Assembly (NCBI GenBank): GCA_031296405.1
Contig: JAVKKH010000013.1
Coordinates: 1-64,000, forward strand
DNA from: Candidatus Tepidifontimicrobium thermophilum
GTDB taxonomy: Bacteria; Sysuimicrobiota; Sysuimicrobiia; Sysuimicrobiales; Sysuimicrobiaceae
Direction of reading: 5' to 3'
Length of the DNA: 64,000 nucleotides
In this document: positions 18,734 through 49,152 of the stretch, one piece after another
Numbering within the stretch: position 1 is the first letter of the stretch
Layout: the number at the start of each line of letters is the position of its first letter
The notes under the pieces: model-generated
The model's input: the letters and a program-made list of their open reading frames with translations, nothing else
Databases searched by the model: none
Told to the model about the DNA's origin: nothing
Translations under genes and position numbers: made by a program

Positions 18734-18779
18734 ACAGGCAGGGCTTGTCAGGGAGGTGAGAGGGGAACAGTTGGGTTGC

Positions 18780-18960
18780 AGCGCCAGGACCCGCAGCCTG
18801 TGTGGGCTGCGGGTTGACGAGGCGGGGGATCTCGACGGGAAGCTCTGGCTTCCTGCTCGGCGGGTGACCCCAGGCCCACCGGCGGGCCTCCGGAAACCCA
18901 TCCGGTGCGCAAAAGGTAGCTGACAAAGCCCGGGGGCGACCCCGGGACAAAAGGCTGCCG
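18780..18960 (+). ncRNA. glmS ribozyme: glmS self-cleaving ribozyme
   Basis: The core of the GlcN6P-activated ribozyme is clear. The cleavage site should be A18780|G18781, with GCGCCAGGAC at the 5' end. P1 is CCGCAGCC/GGCTGCGG. The conserved GTTGACGAGGCGGGGGATC core is followed by a P2a hairpin and the conserved CTCGGCGGGTGACCCC. Peripheral hairpins follow: AGGCCC/GGGCCT, CCGGA/TCCGG, and P4 GGTAGC/GCTGCC enclosing CCCGGGG-GCGA-CCCCGGG. Normally this ribozyme sits in the 5' leader of glmS. Here it sits in front of the FBP aldolase/phosphatase gene, with glmS second. Cleavage at high GlcN6P should lower expression of the whole transcript. Confidence 0.93.
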
Positions 18961-19044
18961 GCCGGCGCCGTCCTGAGCTGACCGTCGCGCTGGGCGTCCC
19001 ACCTGAGCGCGAGGGTCCCACGAGAAAGTCAACCGACCCCCGGC

Positions 19045-19059
19045 CCCGCTTTTTGCGGG
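19045..19059 (+). other. small leader hairpin before fbp
   Basis: CCCGC-TTTTT-GCGGG forms a five-base-pair hairpin in the leader between the ribozyme and the fbp start. The U run is in the loop, so it is not an intrinsic terminator. It may help processing or stability of the cleaved mRNA. Apart from this hairpin I see nothing recognisable in 18961-19097. Confidence 0.4.
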
Positions 19060-19097
19060 CTGACAGGAAATCCGTGTGCGCGAAAGGAGGGGAGCGT

Positions 19098-20228
19098 ATG
19101 CGCACCACCCTGAGCGTGATCAAGGCCGACATCGGCAGCGTGGGCGGACACACCCTGCCCAGCCAGCGGGTCCTAGAAGTGGTGCGGGAGCGTGTGTTTG
19201 CCGAGCGCGGCAAGCTGCTGGTAGACGCTTACGTGGCCCACACGGGGGATGACGTCTGCCTGATCCTGTCCCACCACCACGGGGTGGGACATCCGGACGT
19301 GCACGCCCTCGCCTGGGAGGCGTTCCGGGCAGGCGCGGAGGTGGCCAAACGGCAGGGGCTGTACGGCGCGGGCCAGGACTTGCTGAAGGACGCCTTTTCG
19401 GGCAACGTACGGGGCCTGGGGCCCGCCGCGGCGGAGATGGAGTTCGAAGAGCGCCCCAACGAAGCCGTGGTGGTATTCGCCGCGGACAAGACCGAGCCCG
19501 GCGCCTTCAACCTGCCCCTGTACCTCGCCTTCGCGGATCCCATGTACTCCTCCGGCCTGCTGCTGTCCCCGGACCTCCACCAGGGCTTCCGGTTCCGCAT
19601 CATGGACGTGGACTACACGGAGGGGGACCGGACCATCACCCTGGACGCGCCCGAGCGCCTGTACGACATCGCGGCGCTGCTCCGGGACACCCACCGCTAC
19701 GTCATCGAGTCCATCTGGTCCCGGAAGTACCCGCAGGAGCAGGCGGCCGCGGTGTCCACCACCCGGCTGCGCAACATCGCGGGCCGGTACGTGGGCAAGG
19801 ACGACCCCGTGGCGGTGGTCCGGGTGCAGAAGATCTTCCCGGCCACGGAGGAGTTCGGGCCACCCTTCGCCGTGGTGCCCTTCGTGGCCGGGGACACCCG
19901 CGGCAGCCACAACCTGCCGCTGATGCCGGTGCCCATCAACACCCCTGCCAGCACCTTCTTCTGCGTGCCCATGGTCTCGGGCCTCGCCTTCTCCGTACAC
20001 GAGGGGAAGTTCACCGAGCCGACGGACCTGTTCGCGGACCCCTTCTGGGCCCACGTGCGCGACCGCGCGGCGGCCAAGGCCCTGGAGATGCGCCGGCAGG
20101 GATTCTTCGGGCCGGCCATGCTGCCCATGTCGGAGCTGGAGTACGGAGGGATCGTGGCGCGTCTGGAGGCGCTGGAGAAGGAGTTCGTGGTGAGCCGCGA
20201 GGCGGAGCCCGCAGCCGCCGGCCAGTAG
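19098..20228 (+). CDS. fbp: fructose-1,6-bisphosphate aldolase/phosphatase (archaeal type)
   Basis: A 376-residue bifunctional FBP aldolase/phosphatase (class V FBPase). It condenses DHAP and GAP and dephosphorylates the product to fructose-6-phosphate, making gluconeogenesis one-way. Seen are the N-terminal TLSVIKADIGSVGGHTLPS with metal-binding Asp, LILSHHHGVG, the aldolase residues Tyr231 and Lys234 in RYVGKDDP (matching Y229/K232 of archaeal enzymes), and GDTRGSHNLPLMPV. ATG at 19098 follows AAAGGAGGGG. It lies between the glmS ribozyme and glmS, so its product F6P is made next to the enzyme that uses it. The family is common in archaea and deep-branching thermophilic bacteria. Confidence 0.95.
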   Translation: MRTTLSVIKADIGSVGGHTLPSQRVLEVVRERVFAERGKLLVDAYVAHTGDDVCLILSHHHGVGHPDVHALAWEAFRAGAEVAKRQGLYGAGQDLLKDAFSGNVRGLGPAAAEMEFEERPNEAVVVFAADKTEPGAFNLPLYLAFADPMYSSGLLLSPDLHQGFRFRIMDVDYTEGDRTITLDAPERLYDIAALLRDTHRYVIESIWSRKYPQEQAAAVSTTRLRNIAGRYVGKDDPVAVVRVQKIFPATEEFGPPFAVVPFVAGDTRGSHNLPLMPVPINTPASTFFCVPMVSGLAFSVHEGKFTEPTDLFADPFWAHVRDRAAAKALEMRRQGFFGPAMLPMSELEYGGIVARLEALEKEFVVSREAEPAAAGQ

Positions 20229-20239
20229 GCCGCGGCTAC

Positions 20240-20270
20240 GAGACCGGTTGCCCCGGCGGCCGTCGGTCTC
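20240..20270 (+). other. intercistronic hairpin between fbp and glmS
   Basis: GAGACCG (20240-20246) and CGGTCTC (20264-20270) form a perfect seven-base-pair stem in the 58-bp gap before glmS. There is no U tract. It may tune the relative expression of the two cistrons. Confidence 0.4.
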
Positions 20271-20286
20271 GGGGCGGGAGGCGTCT

Positions 20287-22113
<1,827 letters not shown>

Positions 22114-41484: not shown

Positions 41485-43050
41485 CTAGCTGCCCGCCACC
41501 AGGGCTTCCGGAGGTGCGTGCAGCAACCCGGCCTCCTTGAGCTGGCTGTAGATCTCCACCACCTTCGAGAAGCCCCGGAAGTCGCCCCGGTACTCCTTCT
41601 CGTGCTTGTAGCCCAGCTCCACGAACTTGTTCAGGGTGATGAAGAAGGCGAACTGCACGATGTTGGACTCTGCTTCCGGGGCGTCCCGGTTCTTGTCGAT
41701 GAACAGGTTGAGGATGTCGATCCTGGGGAGTTCTTCGGGGTCCAGCCCCTCCTGCCGGGCCTTGGACTCCAGGTAATCCCGCAGGTCCCGGGTCGCCTTC
41801 CAGTCCTTGACCAGCACCATGGCCACGTCCAGGTCGTACTCCAGGTCGCCTGAGCCCACGCTGTGGTGCATGGTGGGCCGCTCGTACAGCTCCGACTCCC
41901 CGTCGTCCTCCGCAGGCCGCTCGTCCAGCCGGCAGCCCTCCTTGTCCAGGGGCGAGATAGCCAGAATCGGGGCCCGCAGCTCCAGGCTGAGTTCCGCCAG
42001 CTGTGAGGAGATCAGGTCCGTACGGGCCTTGTCGTCCGCGATGGGCTCGTCCAGGGGGATCTTCTGCAGGTAGTCCAGGCAGACGAGGATCCGGTCGGTG
42101 TCGTGCTCCTGCATCACGTTGTAGGCGTGGGCCTTGATCCGGTCCAGGGTGTCCCTCCGCCCGGCCTCCACCAGGTACAGGTAGGGCGCGAACCGGTACA
42201 CCTCTTCCTCCGCGGCCCGCAGCTTCGACAGGCTGAGCGGGGAACGGTCCACGGTCCCCGCCAGGATGTCCGCCGGGCTCACCAGCATCTCCTTGGCCAG
42301 AAGCCGTGCAGCCAACACCTTTGCCGTCTGCTCCCACGAGTAGAAGAGGACGGGGATGCGGTGATTGCGGGCCACGTAGCTGGCCAGCTGCAACGCCAGG
42401 TTGGTCTTGCCCCGCCGGGGAGCCCCGGCCAGCCCGTAGTAGAAGCCCGGCCGGAGCCCTGAGAGCACCCGGTTCAGCCGATCGAAGGGCGAGATGGAGT
42501 ACCCCAGCAGGCCTCCCGCGGAGGGATTCTGGACGTTCTCGATGAGCTCGGCCACCAGGTCCCCGACGGGGACCAGGCGCTGGCGCAGGCGCCGCTTCTG
42601 GACCTCGAACAGCTCCCCCACCACCTCGCCCACGAACCGGACCAGGTCCCGGGAGCCCGCGCGTTCCCCCTGACGGAGGAAGTCCTGGATCCGGCGCTGG
42701 ACCGCCTCCAGCCTGCGGCGGCTCTCCCGCGCCTTGAGCGCGTCCAGGTAGCTGGCCATCTGGCTAGCGGAGGGCGGACGGGTCATCCGCACCGCCTGCA
42801 GCAATCGCTCCATCTCGGGGGTCAGCAGTCCCCGCTCGTGCACCTCGTGACGGACGCTCACTTGGTCCAGGGGAGCCGCGCGGGCCATGGCCAGTTCCAG
42901 CACCACCTTGCTCAGGCGCTGGGCCACGGGGTTGTCCAGCATCTCTGGCGCGAACCCCTCGTTGAGGGCCAGGCTGATCAGGTGTCGGTCGGCCATCAGG
43001 CCCGCCACGACCGCCACGTCCAGCTCGTACCGTGCGTCCATGGGTGTCAA
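41485..43050 (-). CDS. DnaB-like helicase/RecA-fold ATPase in the pilus operon
   Basis: About 521 residues. An N-terminal helical domain resembling DnaB_N (about 10-115) is followed by a linker and a hexameric-helicase RecA domain. Walker A is GAPRRGKTNLALQLA in place of the usual G-x-SxGKT, Walker B ILVCLDYLQKI, then SVGSGDLEYDLDVAMVL and FIDKNRDAPEAESNIVQFAF, which align with DnaB motifs H3 and H4. A charged 30-residue segment is inserted before H4. The TTG at 43050 sits six bases after AGGAGG; ATG 43041 is an alternative. It precedes pilT and pilC by short gaps and may be a divergent second DnaB, or a motor recruited to DNA uptake. Confidence 0.8.
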   Translation of the reverse strand: MTPMDARYELDVAVVAGLMADRHLISLALNEGFAPEMLDNPVAQRLSKVVLELAMARAAPLDQVSVRHEVHERGLLTPEMERLLQAVRMTRPPSASQMASYLDALKARESRRRLEAVQRRIQDFLRQGERAGSRDLVRFVGEVVGELFEVQKRRLRQRLVPVGDLVAELIENVQNPSAGGLLGYSISPFDRLNRVLSGLRPGFYYGLAGAPRRGKTNLALQLASYVARNHRIPVLFYSWEQTAKVLAARLLAKEMLVSPADILAGTVDRSPLSLSKLRAAEEEVYRFAPYLYLVEAGRRDTLDRIKAHAYNVMQEHDTDRILVCLDYLQKIPLDEPIADDKARTDLISSQLAELSLELRAPILAISPLDKEGCRLDERPAEDDGESELYERPTMHHSVGSGDLEYDLDVAMVLVKDWKATRDLRDYLESKARQEGLDPEELPRIDILNLFIDKNRDAPEAESNIVQFAFFITLNKFVELGYKHEKEYRGDFRGFSKVVEIYSQLKEAGLLHAPPEALVAGS

Positions 43051-43197
43051 CACTTCCCTCCTGCCCCGGTGAGGTCCTTCAGGGGGCTGTTGGAGCAAGT
43101 TTCGTTCCAGGCTATCGGGTTGGCTTGCGGGCCCCGGGGACCTGTGCTACTTTCCGGTCAACCCCGGGCCCGCGGTCTGGGGCGGCTGGCGGCGGGG

Positions 43198-43203: not shown

Positions 43204-43280
43204 ACTTGCTCTTCGCGTAGACTGGGAGCAAGGACGGCGGTGGCCGGGGGGCACCGGTGGCGAGGAGCCGGGAGAGGACC

Positions 43281-45722
43281 ATGAAGGCAAGCGGGACGAA
43301 GGCCGAGCAGGCGGAGGCCGAGCTGGCTGCCCTCCGGGAGTACAAGGCATCTTTGGGGATCCCTGCGGGCAACCAGACCCTGGAGTGCGCGTGGCGGTAC
43401 CACCAGGCCATCCGGCACGCCCACGCGGGCCGGCTGCAGGAGGCCATCGCGGAGTACAAAAAGCTCATCGAGCTGGCGCCGGAGGAGCCCATCCACTATC
43501 TGGATCTCGCGGACCTGTACCAGTCCGGGGGCTTCATGAAGGAAGCTGCGGTAGTCCTCCTGGCGCTGGGTGAGGTGTACGAGAGGCTGGGGCTTTCCCA
43601 GGAGGCAGTCAGCGTCCTGGAGCGCGCCGAAGCCCTGGAAGCGAGGGCGGACGGCCACCCGGCACCGGCCCGTGGGCTGGACGCCCAACCGTCCCCAGCG
43701 ACGGGAGAGCCGGGGCCGGCGCCCGAACCGGCTGAGGAGCAGCACGGGGAAGCCGCTCCGATCGTAGGGGAGGTCCCCCCGAGGCCGGAGGCGGCGCAGG
43801 CGCCCTTCGAGGCTGCCGCCGCACTCGAGCACCTAGCCCAGGGCCAGGCCGAGACCGCCCAACGGAGTTCCGCCGAAGTGCCGGCCCGCGAGACGTTCGA
43901 GCGGCCCGTGCAGCACGAGCCAGGCGCGCCGCCTTCTGCGGCCTCCCTGCCGGTGCCGGACCCGGCGGCTTCAACTCCCCCAGCACCTCCTTCCGGACCC
44001 CGAGCCGCCGCGCGTCCCGGTGCGCCCACCCTGGTCCGGCGGGAAGCCCTGGGCGGCATCCTGGTCCGCATGGGGCTGCTGAACGAAGCGCAGCTGCAGC
44101 AGGCCCTGGAGATCCAGGCCCGCACCGGCGAGCGGCTGGGCCGCATCCTGGTCCGCATGGGGCTGATCGCGGAGGAGGACCTGGCGAAGGCCATCGGGGT
44201 ACAGTGGGGCTACCCGTACGTGAGCCTGAGCAACACCCCCGTGGACCCGGAGGTGGTACGGCTGGTACCCCAGCACATCGCCTCGCGTCACAAGGTGCTG
44301 GCCTTCGGCCGGAACGGGGACCGCCTCCTGGTGGCCCTGGTGGATCCCCTGAACCTGCTGGCCTTGGACGACGTGCGGCTCGTCACCGGGATGGACGTGG
44401 AGGCCCGCATCACCACCGAGGACGAGCTGATGCAGGCGATCAACAAGTACTACCACGTGGGCTCCATCTTCGACCAGGCCGTGGTCACGGAGGAGGAGGC
44501 GGCGGCCGAGGAGGAGGTCAGCATCGACCGACTCCGGGAGATGGTGGACGAGGCCCCGGTGGTGAAGCTGGTCAACGTGATCCTGGACCAGGCCATCCGG
44601 GAGGGGGCTTCGGACATCCACATCGAGCCCCACCGCAACGGGCTGCACGTCCGCTACCGGATCGACGGGGTGCTCCACGACGTCATGTCGCCGCCGAAGA
44701 ACCTCAAGGCGGCCCTGGTGTCCCGCATCAAGATCGTGGCGAACCTGGACATCGCGGAGCGGCGCCGTCCTCAGGACGGCCGGATCCACCTGAAGGTGGA
44801 CGGCCGGGACATCGACCTCCGCGTCTCCACCCTCCCCACCATGTTCGGGGAGAAGGTGGTGATGCGCATCCTCGACCAGTCCAACGCCCTCATCAGCCTG
44901 AACCGGCTCGGCATGGCCAGCGACGTCCAGGCCCAGTGGGAGGAGCTGGCCAGCAAGCCCTACGGGATGATCCTGGTGACCGGACCCACCGGCAGCGGGA
45001 AGACCACGACCCTGTACGCCACGCTGAGCAAGATCAACACCCTCGACAAGAACATCATTACAGTGGAGGACCCCGTCGAGTACCAGCTCCCGCGCATCAA
45101 CCAGGTCCAGGTGAACCCCAAGGCGGGGCTCACCTTCGCCACGGGGCTGCGGAGTATCCTCCGGCAGGACCCGGACGTGATCATGGTGGGCGAGATCCGC
45201 GACCGGGAGACGGCGGAGATCGCGGTGCAGGCGGCCCTCACAGGCCACCTGGTGCTCAGCACCCTGCACACCAACGACGCCCCCAGCGCCTTCACCCGCC
45301 TGGTGGACATGGGCATCGAGCCGTTCCTCATCACGTCGTCGGTGATTGGGGTCCTGGCCCAGCGGCTCGCTCGGACCATCTGCCCGAAGTGCAAGGAGGC
45401 GTACCGACCGCCCCGCGAGGCGGTGCGGCGCCTGTCGGAGGAGCTGGCGGAGGAGAAGGACTTGGTGCTGTACCGGGGTGCCGGCTGCGACTTCTGTCGC
45501 CAGACGGGCTACAAGGGCCGGACCGGGGTCTACGAGCTGCTGGTGGTGAGCGACCGGATCCGGGAGCGGGTGGTCCGGCGCGCCTCCGCCAACGAGATCC
45601 GGGAGGTGGCCCGCTCGGAAGGCTTCCGGACCATGCGGGACGACGGGATCCGTAAGGTGCTGGAAGGGGTCACCACCATCGAGGAGATCCTGCGGGTGGT
45701 GTACGTGACGGAAGGCGCCTGA
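43281..45722 (+). CDS. pilB: type IV pilus assembly ATPase PilB/GspE with N-terminal TPR fusion
   Basis: An 813-residue extension ATPase. The N-terminus (about 25-115) is TPR-like (YHQAIRHAHAGRLQEAIAEY, VLLALGEVYERLGLSQEAVS). A disordered Pro/Ala/Glu linker follows (about 120-255), then an MshEN domain (GGILVRMGLLNEAQLQQALE and a second copy). The GspE ATPase has Walker A GPTGSGKTTTLYATLS, TVEDPVEYQLPRI, DVIMVGEIRDRETAEIAV and the zinc site CPKC...CDFC. MshEN domains bind c-di-GMP in several PilB proteins. ATG at 43281 follows GGGAGAGG; GTG 43257 is possible. It is divergent from the dnaB-like/pilT/pilC set. Confidence 0.93.
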   Translation: MKASGTKAEQAEAELAALREYKASLGIPAGNQTLECAWRYHQAIRHAHAGRLQEAIAEYKKLIELAPEEPIHYLDLADLYQSGGFMKEAAVVLLALGEVYERLGLSQEAVSVLERAEALEARADGHPAPARGLDAQPSPATGEPGPAPEPAEEQHGEAAPIVGEVPPRPEAAQAPFEAAAALEHLAQGQAETAQRSSAEVPARETFERPVQHEPGAPPSAASLPVPDPAASTPPAPPSGPRAAARPGAPTLVRREALGGILVRMGLLNEAQLQQALEIQARTGERLGRILVRMGLIAEEDLAKAIGVQWGYPYVSLSNTPVDPEVVRLVPQHIASRHKVLAFGRNGDRLLVALVDPLNLLALDDVRLVTGMDVEARITTEDELMQAINKYYHVGSIFDQAVVTEEEAAAEEEVSIDRLREMVDEAPVVKLVNVILDQAIREGASDIHIEPHRNGLHVRYRIDGVLHDVMSPPKNLKAALVSRIKIVANLDIAERRRPQDGRIHLKVDGRDIDLRVSTLPTMFGEKVVMRILDQSNALISLNRLGMASDVQAQWEELASKPYGMILVTGPTGSGKTTTLYATLSKINTLDKNIITVEDPVEYQLPRINQVQVNPKAGLTFATGLRSILRQDPDVIMVGEIRDRETAEIAVQAALTGHLVLSTLHTNDAPSAFTRLVDMGIEPFLITSSVIGVLAQRLARTICPKCKEAYRPPREAVRRLSEELAEEKDLVLYRGAGCDFCRQTGYKGRTGVYELLVVSDRIRERVVRRASANEIREVARSEGFRTMRDDGIRKVLEGVTTIEEILRVVYVTEGA

Positions 45723-45783: not shown

Positions 45784-46836
45784 GTGCAGGCGGCGGTCCT
45801 CGTGCAGTTCAGCGTCCCCCTGGAAGTGCGGGAGGTCGCGGAGCCCGCGTGCGGGCCCGCAGACGCGGTGGTGCGGGTGGAGGCGTGCGGGGTGTGCCGT
45901 AGCGACTGGCACGTGTGGCGCGGAGACTGGGGCTGGGTGGGGGTGCGGCCGAAGCTGCCCCTGGTGCTCGGGCACGAGTTCGCGGGGGTGGTGGAGGCGG
46001 TGGGGGACGCGGTGGAGGGTTTCCGCCCCGGCGACCGGGTGACTGTGCCCTTCCGGATCGCGTGCGGACGGTGCGAGCTGTGCCGTAGGGGCCGGTCCAA
46101 CCTCTGCCCCCGGCGCGGGGTGCTGGGGGTGGACTTGGACGGTGCCTTCGCACGGCGGGTTCGGGTCCCCGAGGCGGAAGCTAACCTCGTACGGCTGCCG
46201 GAACCGGTGGACTTCGTGTCCGCGGCGAGCCTGGGGTGTCGGTACACCACCGCGTACCACGCGGTGGCCAACCGCGCCGCGGTCCGTCCGGGCGAGTGGG
46301 TGGCGGTGTTCGGAGCCGGAGGGGTGGGGCTGTCGGCGGTGCAGATCGCTTCCGCCCTGGGGGCGCAGGTGGTGGCCGTGGACGTCCGGGAAGCGAACCT
46401 CCAGAGGGCCGCGCGGGAAGGTGCGGTGGTCTGCGTGGATGCTTCCGCCGAGGACCCCGTCCGACGTATCCGCGACCTGGCCGACGGGGAGGGGGCGCAC
46501 GTGGCGGTGGAGGCCGTGGGCCTGGCGCAGACGATCCAGCAGGCGGTGCGCTGCGTCCGACGCGGCGGCCGGGTGGTTCAGGTGGGGCTGACCGGCCGGG
46601 AGGACCAGGGCTCCGTGCCCATCCCCGTGGACCGGGCGGTGCTCCTGGAGCTCAGCTTGCTGGGCAGCGCGGGCTGTCCGGGATGGGCCTTCCGGGGCCT
46701 GCTGGCCCTGGTGGCCTCGGGCCGGCTGTCGCCTGCTAGGCTGGTGGCGCGCACCATACGCCTGGACGAGGTTAACGACGTCCTGGAGGCCATGAACCGG
46801 TTCGAGACCTCCGGCTTTCACGTGGTCACCTGGTAA
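45784..46836 (+). CDS. zinc-dependent alcohol dehydrogenase (MDR family)
   Basis: A 350-residue medium-chain dehydrogenase. Catalytic Zn ligands lie in GVCRSDWH and GHEFAG. The structural zinc cysteines are in CGRCELCRRGRSNLC. The nucleotide motif is GAGGVGLSAVQIA. The spacing resembles the AdhT/AdhA class of NAD-dependent alcohol dehydrogenases. GTG at 45784 follows GGGAGG. It precedes nagA by eight bases and may be cotranscribed; the substrate is unknown. Confidence 0.88.
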   Translation: MQAAVLVQFSVPLEVREVAEPACGPADAVVRVEACGVCRSDWHVWRGDWGWVGVRPKLPLVLGHEFAGVVEAVGDAVEGFRPGDRVTVPFRIACGRCELCRRGRSNLCPRRGVLGVDLDGAFARRVRVPEAEANLVRLPEPVDFVSAASLGCRYTTAYHAVANRAAVRPGEWVAVFGAGGVGLSAVQIASALGAQVVAVDVREANLQRAAREGAVVCVDASAEDPVRRIRDLADGEGAHVAVEAVGLAQTIQQAVRCVRRGGRVVQVGLTGREDQGSVPIPVDRAVLLELSLLGSAGCPGWAFRGLLALVASGRLSPARLVARTIRLDEVNDVLEAMNRFETSGFHVVTW

Positions 46837-46844
46837 CAGACGCC

Positions 46845-47984
46845 GTGATCAGCCGCCTCGTTCTCGCGGCGGGCGTGGTGGTGGCCCCGGACCGGGACCT
46901 AGTACCGGGCTACGTGGTGGTGGAGGACGGGCTCATCGCAGAGGTCAGGGAGGGCACACCACGCCGTGCCGACCGGGAGTTCCCGCACGGGGTGTTGGTC
47001 CCTGGCTTTGTGGACCTGCAGGTGAACGGGGCCGCCGGCGCGGACTTCCTTTCCTGCACCCCCGAACAGTTCGCCGCGGCACGGCGGTACCTGGCGTCCA
47101 CGGGCACTACCAGCTTCCTGCCCACGTTGATCACCGCGCCCCCGGAGGTTGTCCGGGCAGCCGCGCAGGTGGTGGCCGTGGGCGCGGGAGGCGGTGCCCA
47201 GCCGGTGGGGCTGCACCTGGAGGGACCGGCCATCAGCCCGAAGCGGGCCGGGGCGCACGATCCGCGGTGGATCGTGCCTCCGGGCGATCCGAGCGTCAGG
47301 CGGCTGGTGGCTGACCTCGGCGGTCTTGTGCGCGCCGTCACCGTGGCTCCGGAACAGCCGGGCGGGCTGGAGCTGGTGCGGTGGCTTGCGGGCGCGGGGG
47401 TCGTCGCCTCGGTGGGCCACTCGGACGCCACCTACCAGCAGGCCCGGGAGGCCTTCGAGGCCGGTGCCGGCATGGTCACCCACCTCTTCAACGCCATGCG
47501 GGGGTTGCACCACCGGGAACCGGGAGTCGTAGGTGCCGCGCTGGAGGACGGCGCCTGGGTGTGCGGGTTGGTGGCAGACGGGGTGCACGTGCACCCGGCG
47601 GCCTTCCGCCTGGCCTACCGGCTGCTGGGATCGGAACGGATGGCGCTCGTGACCGACGCCATGGCCGCTGCGGGGGCTGCGCCGGGTCGGTACCGCCTGG
47701 GCGGAGCCCTGGCGACGGTCCTGCCCGGTGAGGCTCCACGTTTGGCGGACGGGACCCTTGCGGGCACCGTCCTGCGGATGGACGAAGCGGTAGACAACGC
47801 GACCCGGTGGGGCGTGCCCCTGCGGGACGCCGTCCGCATGGCCACCACCACTCCCGCGCGGGTCCTACGCCTCGAGGATCGCGGGCTGCTGCGACCGGGG
47901 CTGCGCGCGGACCTTTGCGTGCTGGTGGAGGGTCGGGCAGCCCTCACGGTCGTGGCGGGGGAGGTGGTGTGGGACTCGTTTTGA
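46845..47984 (+). CDS. nagA: N-acetylglucosamine-6-phosphate deacetylase
   Basis: A 379-residue NagA that deacetylates GlcNAc-6-P from recycled or imported amino sugar to GlcN-6-P, the effector of the glmS ribozyme. Motifs: GFVDLQVNGAAGADF, HLEGPAISPKRAGAHD with metal-binding Glu, VGHSDATY, THLFNAMRGLHHREPG and LVTDAMAAAG with catalytic Asp. The first metal site is the QxN form as in E. coli. GTG at 46845 has no strong ribosome site, so coupling to the upstream dehydrogenase is likely. No nagB is nearby. Confidence 0.93.
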   Translation: MISRLVLAAGVVVAPDRDLVPGYVVVEDGLIAEVREGTPRRADREFPHGVLVPGFVDLQVNGAAGADFLSCTPEQFAAARRYLASTGTTSFLPTLITAPPEVVRAAAQVVAVGAGGGAQPVGLHLEGPAISPKRAGAHDPRWIVPPGDPSVRRLVADLGGLVRAVTVAPEQPGGLELVRWLAGAGVVASVGHSDATYQQAREAFEAGAGMVTHLFNAMRGLHHREPGVVGAALEDGAWVCGLVADGVHVHPAAFRLAYRLLGSERMALVTDAMAAAGAAPGRYRLGGALATVLPGEAPRLADGTLAGTVLRMDEAVDNATRWGVPLRDAVRMATTTPARVLRLEDRGLLRPGLRADLCVLVEGRAALTVVAGEVVWDSF

Positions 47985-48880: not shown

Positions 48881-48949
48881 CACCGGGTGGAAGCGCGCCG
48901 CGCGGACCTCGGGGGGTAGGGTCCGCACGCGCGCGCTTCCTGCCCGGTG
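48881..48949. repeat. long imperfect inverted repeat (about 28-bp arms)
   Basis: The left arm runs from CACCGGGTGGAAGCGCGC to CGGACC (48881-48908) and the right arm from GGTCCGC to GCTTCCTGCCCGGTG (48920-48949), with an 11-base loop. Pairing is nearly complete, with two clusters of mismatch. It lies 50 bp after the dehydrogenase-like gene and beside the minus-strand terminator. It could terminate plus-strand transcripts or be a remnant of a repeat element. Confidence 0.75.
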
Positions 48950-48956
48950 CCCTCTG

Positions 48957-48998
48957 CAGAACAAACAGAAGGCCCGTGCGCACCGCGCGAACGGGCCC
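48957..48998 (-). terminator. intrinsic terminator behind the c-di-GMP riboswitch
   Basis: On the minus strand GGGCCCGT pairs with ACGGGCC around an inner GCGC-GGT-GCGC stem. The tail is TTCTGTTTGTT. It begins 12 bases after the riboswitch P1 stem, the usual place for an expression-platform terminator. Confidence 0.75.
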
Positions 48999-49009
48999 AA
49001 AAACGAAAC

Positions 49010-49101
49010 CACCGTTTTCGGCAACCCGGCCGACCTGCTCCTCGCAGGCCCCGTTGGCTTTGCGTCCCCGCGTTACCGCGGGTTTGCCCTTTCGAACGGT
49101 G
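49010..49101 (-). ncRNA. c-di-GMP-I (GEMM-I) riboswitch aptamer
   Basis: Read on the minus strand, P1 is CACCGTT/AACGGTG. The conserved GGGCAAACC is followed by a P2 hairpin CCGCG-GTAA-CGCGG with a GNRA tetraloop, then GGGACGCAAAGCC and the P3 helix ending GGGTTGCCG. These match the c-di-GMP-I aptamer, including the J1/2 and J2/3 bases around the ligand pocket. It has its own promoter and a terminator, but no recognisable gene lies downstream on the minus strand. Confidence 0.9.
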
Positions 49102-49123
49102 CGCGGTTCAGTTTTGTACCGGC

Positions 49124-49152
49124 ACAATAGCGCCGGCCAACCGGGCTGTCAA
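49124..49152 (-). promoter_or_regulatory. sigma70-type promoter of the riboswitch RNA
   Basis: On the minus strand TTGACA (49147-49152), a 17-bp spacer and TATTGT (49124-49129). It is one of the best promoter matches in the window. The start of transcription would fall near 49117, just before the aptamer. Confidence 0.8.

Follow-up and report, generated by a model that had tools for sequence, protein, structure and literature searches.

A free-standing c-di-GMP-I riboswitch unit and a conserved hairpin behind its terminator in the Sysuimicrobiota

In many bacteria c-di-GMP governs the choice between moving and settling, and c-di-GMP riboswitches are nearly always taken to control the gene that follows them. 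Riboswitches can also control non-coding RNAs, as is the case for Rli55 and AspocR, and SreA acts in trans (PMC8079631). Here we describe a c-di-GMP-I unit on the minus strand of a 64,000-nucleotide stretch of DNA (the window) from a lineage of little-known hot-spring bacteria; the unit is small and could be tested in vitro. Judged from its letters, it holds a promoter, an aptamer, a terminator, mutually exclusive pairings and an invariant hairpin, with no conserved gene behind them. The phylum Sysuimicrobiota (CSP1-3) has been described as comprising a single class and a single order (PMC11604079), and the 43 genomes of our sample of the phylum all belong to one order.

The minus-strand unit and its neighbours

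The first-pass annotation had placed a promoter, a complete aptamer and a terminator on the minus strand, and cmscan, a promoter scan and folding confirmed all three (Table 1). The covariance search with the c-di-GMP-I model that it had proposed gave a full-length alignment (RF03168 model positions 1-81 of 81), so that both the aptamer fold and the conserved core by which membership of the Rfam clan CL00126 is judged were matched over the whole model. The RF03168 cut-off was exceeded by just 0.2 bits and the best-scoring model for the orthologues was GGC or the general c-di-GMP-I model, not UAU; the UAU subtype is therefore borderline and c-di-GMP-I is the safe name. The Rfam scan at the unit returned no family besides c-di-GMP-I.

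The promoter was the one sigma-70-like site found in 2 kb (49152-49124), where 0.1 would be expected by chance. Its -35 box is unchanged across the four species of the genus that were compared, and the -10 box reads TATTGT, TATCTT, TATTTT and TATGCT. The outer stem of the terminator is preserved through compensatory changes (two, in one species), and its inner four pairs are only partly kept. A terminator-like site of 9 pairs at 49027-49006 was set aside, as it is AT-rich and overlaps P1, and the GC stem is the likelier terminator. The fold of the whole unit has a z of -4.1.

Table 1. Features of the unit and its surroundings, with the gene-less units of genus g9
Feature	Position	Strand	Evidence or remark
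Promoter TTGACA-17-TATTGT	49124-49152	(-)	10/12 consensus matches
Leader strand GCGCACCGTTCGAAAGGGC	49086-49104	(-)	Antiterminator arm and 5' strand of P1
c-di-GMP-I aptamer	49016-49097	(-)	cmscan RF03168 (c-di-GMP-I-UAU), 66.1 bits, E 4.4e-12
P1 3' strand AACGGTG	49010-49016	(-)	Pairs with CACCGTT at 49095-49101; one mismatch in G002
Intrinsic terminator, GC-rich	48958-48997	(-)	Stem 48971-48997; tail 48958-48970, TTCTGTTTGTTCT
Conserved hairpin, 69 nt, proposed RNA payload	48881-48949	(-)	z -6.6, -58.6 kcal/mol
UDPG-dehydrogenase-like gene, convergent, 275 aa	48004-48831	(+)	PF03721
nagA	46845-47984	(+)	
ADH-type (alcohol-dehydrogenase-type) gene	45784-46836	(+)	
pilB, PilB-type ATPase with MshEN domain	43257-45722	(+)	NF053729
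DnaB_C protein, first minus-strand gene downstream	41485-43098	(-)	
g9 gene-less units	L065-L068 (G041, G039, G012, G015)		Conserved C-rich tail CACCTCCCCCCC

Comparison of the locus in relatives, another check that had been suggested, found the unit in place in four of four species of the genus, between the dehydrogenase-like gene and an ATP-dependent DNA ligase. In G006, from a sister genus of the same family, nagA directly adjoins the ligase, and both the dehydrogenase-like gene and the riboswitch are missing from between them; this points to a gain of the segment in this genus or to its loss in G006.

The first-pass annotation had held that every recognisable gene for more than 5 kb downstream is on the other strand, and the next same-strand gene indeed ends 5.9 kb from the unit. 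It had also named a conserved minus-strand ORF just downstream as a finding that would overturn its reading; none appeared in the four-species ORF comparison. The candidates for a hidden gene, minus-strand ORFs of 193, 235 and 209 aa over or below the unit, were rejected, as they vary in length and frame among the species, and a Pfam search of two of them matched no family. A GTG frame within the hairpin was rejected as a gene as well, its C-termini differing among the four species. Cis control of an adjacent downstream protein gene, which is usual for clan CL00126 without strictly defining it, was not found here. The proposal that the nearby pilB carries MshEN domains of the c-di-GMP-binding type gained support from its match to NF053729, an NCBIfam MshE-related c-di-GMP motif (60.8 bits, cut-off 38).

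Elsewhere in the window we observed a glmS ribozyme/riboswitch match (18769-18969, plus strand, 46.5 bits, cut-off 37), followed by an ORF at 19053-20228 (plus strand) that by eye looks to be of fructose-bisphosphatase type and by a glmS-like ORF behind it at 20248-22113. Since the former ORF precedes the latter, the ribozyme may be separated from the downstream glmS by one gene.

Competing folds and the hairpin past the terminator

The leader strand is complementary to the terminator region at 48978-48996 (a 19-nt inverted repeat, 84%), and two folds were computed, both predicted for 37°C with kinetics ignored. Fold (a), P1 (CACCGUU/AACGGUG) together with the terminator, reached -69.6 kcal/mol, and fold (b), the leader paired with the inner arm of the terminator, -78.4 kcal/mol. 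The two are mutually exclusive: fold (b) consumes P1 and the GGGC of the aptamer, and a bound aptamer thus excludes it. All 8 pairs of the antiterminator core are preserved in the four species, one of them as G-U, and the leader strand lies within a 40-nt invariant run. Computed folds and conserved pairs in the four species thus agree on a mutually exclusive terminator/antiterminator platform, the second feature by which membership of the clan was judged. In the folding model the antiterminator is favoured without ligand, and binding of c-di-GMP could bridge the energy gap between the two folds and tip the balance to termination. Because the conserved antiterminator excludes P1, c-di-GMP most likely terminates transcription, and the predicted switch is an OFF switch.

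A GC hairpin of 28 pairs begins 8 nt beyond the terminator tail, outside the end coordinate of the first-pass annotation (48957). Its 51-nt core (48890-48940) is letter-for-letter the same in four of four species, the C-rich loop CUACCCCCCGA included, and is the longest invariant run of a 4.15-kb alignment that contains two genes; the longest invariant run outside the unit measures 23 nt and lies in the ligase. Of the alignment columns, a fraction of 0.88 is invariant within the aptamer and 0.90 within the hairpin; past the hairpin it drops to 0.14. The interval between aptamer and hairpin is near constant, at 72-76 nt in the four species. A conserved non-coding element behind the terminator of a switch, of the Rli55/EutX kind, is therefore present in the form of this core. 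The outer stem carries one compensatory A-T to G-C change; this is the only pair that covaries and the core has no base changes among the four species, so that covariation falls short of proving that the hairpin acts as RNA.

The core is single-copy in each genome, and matches with up to three mismatches were confined to the genus except for one in G016, whose letters disrupt the stem. A mobile repeat was ruled out, as the core is single-copy, genus-specific and absent from IMG/VR viral contigs, and a known RNA was ruled out, as the hairpin matches no Rfam family. There is no T tract after the hairpin on either strand, and no other terminator behind it. A pattern search of the genus gave no excess of sites complementary to the loop (in the genome itself, 107 matches to the loop complement vs 149 for the reversed control pattern), and we therefore propose no target.

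c-di-GMP-I units elsewhere in the order

Class-I c-di-GMP aptamers are abundant in the order, with several per genome in many genomes, and by a rough measure a coding-like same-strand ORF lies behind 74 of the 99 aptamers sampled. The second aptamer copy in this genome, which counts among these 74, has its own terminator and then genes that read as type IV pilin-like. Long P3 insertions made of inverted TTCAACCTTCAAC-type repeats were seen in the c-di-GMP-I aptamers of three loci of G007 (L050, L059 and L063). In G009 (L044, ~1500-1780) a small ORF that encodes a short hydrophobic peptide (MRWKAKVFHLVVSLLALASLLIASGAGGKWS) lies behind an aptamer and terminator, and a terminator-like hairpin comes next.

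Gene-less c-di-GMP-I units also occur in other genera of the order, each with different non-coding tails. The aptamer of G005, from a sister genus of the same family, is 85% identical to the present aptamer over 85 nt, and it is followed on its own strand by a terminator and then a 13-pair hairpin with a C7 loop, at a different genomic place and with no convergent dehydrogenase gene. Three c-di-GMP-I aptamers lie there within ~500 bp (L034, 6055-6569); the terminator and the C7-loop hairpin belong to the first, and the other two lead into a same-strand gene. Since it stands upstream of two aptamers and a gene, the C-loop hairpin could be a cis leader element in G005.

Genus g9 belongs to another family; in four of its species a gene-less aptamer precedes GAGCTNGNGCACCTCCCCCCC and a terminator hairpin with the loop GAACCCCTCC. 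The C-rich unit of g9 resembles a small RNA that blocks ribosome-binding sites. For one member a pairing is predicted between the CACCTCCCCCCC tail and a G-rich stretch just behind the aptamer, and ligand binding might thus expose the tail. In a third family (f5) a gene-less aptamer with terminator is common to five species of four genera (L049, L071, L088, L122 and L130), and the ~200-nt partly conserved non-coding region that follows the terminator is unrelated to the other tails. We do not claim common descent for the tails of gene-less units across the order.

Order-wide, C runs were not enriched after aptamers (18 C6 vs 18 G6), and C runs within the loop of a strong stem were rare. A pattern scan of GTDB for an aptamer 3' end with a C6 run gave chance matches for the most part, and real aptamers turned up only in members of the genus. 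It is conceivable, though on balance doubtful, that the order uses free-standing c-di-GMP-I riboswitches that drive non-coding RNAs, several of which would carry a C-rich loop or tail fit to block ribosome-binding sites.

What the unit may control, and comparison with known systems

We prefer the reading that a free-standing c-di-GMP riboswitch governs a non-coding hairpin RNA as its payload, and put its chances at about even. RNA polymerase would start at the minus-strand promoter. When c-di-GMP is bound, the aptamer would hold P1, the terminator would form and only a short transcript of ~160 nt would be released; when it is not, the leader would pair with the inner arm of the terminator, excluding P1 and the 5' edge of the aptamer, and transcription would run on into the 69-nt hairpin. 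This RNA could then act, by the stem or the C-rich loop of the hairpin, on some RNA or protein partner. A single mutation of GCGCACCG or CGGTGCGC would be expected to abolish the response to c-di-GMP, and the double mutant to restore it. Three points of this scheme are inferred: synthesis of the RNA, its response to c-di-GMP with OFF polarity, and the role of the hairpin as functional product.

Between the two possibilities that the first-pass annotation had left standing, a lost gene or a c-di-GMP-responsive small RNA, the evidence favours the small RNA because the unit is conserved in place, the switching platform is kept with compensatory changes and the hairpin holds 51 invariant nucleotides; the decay expected after a loss is not seen. 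The terminator and C7-loop hairpin on the aptamer strand of G005 count in the same direction. Against the hairpin RNA we count the missing T tract, the lack of an excess of loop-complementary sites and the lack of order-wide enrichment of C runs.

Read-through RNA might at low c-di-GMP repress the convergent dehydrogenase-like gene, through collision or a duplex, with the hairpin acting as a pause or stability element. The layout is convergent in all four species, and AspocR, with a B12 riboswitch, is a tested precedent (PMC8079631). Antisense RNA against this gene, as the first-pass annotation had predicted, is possible, since c-di-GMP riboswitches show the strongest antisense tendency (152 of ~2,700 are antisense; PMC9943018), but conservation stops at the hairpin and the sequence from there to the gene is hardly conserved, the intervening 28-pair GC hairpin would hinder read-through, and the related G005 unit faces no such gene. 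The target itself is truncated: the protein aligns with solved enzymes only to residue ~251 of a ~446-residue family and stops a little short of the family's catalytic region, which we place by the presumed position of the catalytic cysteine. The gene is kept in the four species, with identities of 89, 69 and 53%. Taken together, we consider antisense repression unlikely.

That the aptamer transcript is itself the product, storing or titrating c-di-GMP, with both hairpins merely ending and protecting the RNA, seems rather unlikely to us. Bdellovibrio has a c-di-GMP riboswitch RNA without a gene, merRNA (PMC3627812), and a strong promoter and the absence of a gene are common to it and the present unit; a sink requires no antiterminator, yet the antiterminator is conserved here, and the invariant core with its loop would be left unexplained.

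It is likewise rather unlikely that the hairpin has nothing to do with the riboswitch and instead serves the dehydrogenase-like gene as a plus-strand 3' end element or is a protein-bound DNA palindrome. The distance to the stop codon of that gene (58, 58, 59 and 108 nt) is near constant in three species, neither strand has a T tract, and the invariance of the core makes strand and type of nucleic acid indistinguishable. Terminators, however, conserve pairing and not each letter of a loop; the interval on the aptamer side is conserved, whereas that on the gene side is not conserved in sequence; and G005 has a C-loop hairpin beside its aptamer where there is no dehydrogenase gene. Finally, a relic left over after its controlled gene was lost or rearranged would agree with the 5.9 kb without a same-strand gene and with the segment missing in the sister genus, but is highly improbable given the constraint across four species on the aptamer, the -35 box, the switch pairings and the hairpin, while the neighbouring protein diverged to 53% identity.

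If the hairpin RNA is the output, c-di-GMP would be tied directly to RNA regulation through a conserved non-coding product, and this would hint that some of the surveyed c-di-GMP riboswitches labelled antisense-acting or gene-less in truth control non-coding RNAs. If the order-wide reading also holds, c-di-GMP would reach a regulon of trans-acting RNA directly, without a protein receptor.

A literature search covering part of the journals found no c-di-GMP-I switch that combines an antiterminator with a separate, invariant hairpin as output; several described systems share parts of this arrangement. LhrC-type small RNAs of Listeria present C-rich UCCC loops on hairpins (PMC8079631), but LhrC has no riboswitch, and the present loop has no excess of complementary sites. 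In the Bc1 c-di-GMP-I riboswitch of Bacillus thuringiensis the aptamer is likewise followed by two successive hairpins (PMC11218506); there both are terminators and protein genes follow, whereas here there is no gene and the second hairpin lacks a T tract. The c-di-GMP-I riboswitches of an in silico survey are, like this one, oriented against the adjacent gene (PMC9943018), with control inferred from position alone, whereas here the comparison of species favours a non-coding hairpin. AspocR, a B12 riboswitch antisense to pocR, also faces a convergent gene and gives antisense RNA by read-through (PMC8079631), but in our locus a conserved hairpin stands between switch and gene and conservation ends there. 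The merRNA of Bdellovibrio bacteriovorus is a c-di-GMP riboswitch RNA with no downstream ORF (PMC3627812) and has been proposed to be a c-di-GMP reservoir, whereas the antiterminator and the second, invariant hairpin suggest a switched output here. In Rli55/EutX, where the RNA sequesters EutV, a riboswitch and terminator are followed by a non-coding payload and the ligand causes early termination (PMC8079631), as we propose for this unit. There the ligand is B12 and the payload an ANTAR element whose partner is known, whereas the payload proposed here is a single invariant hairpin.
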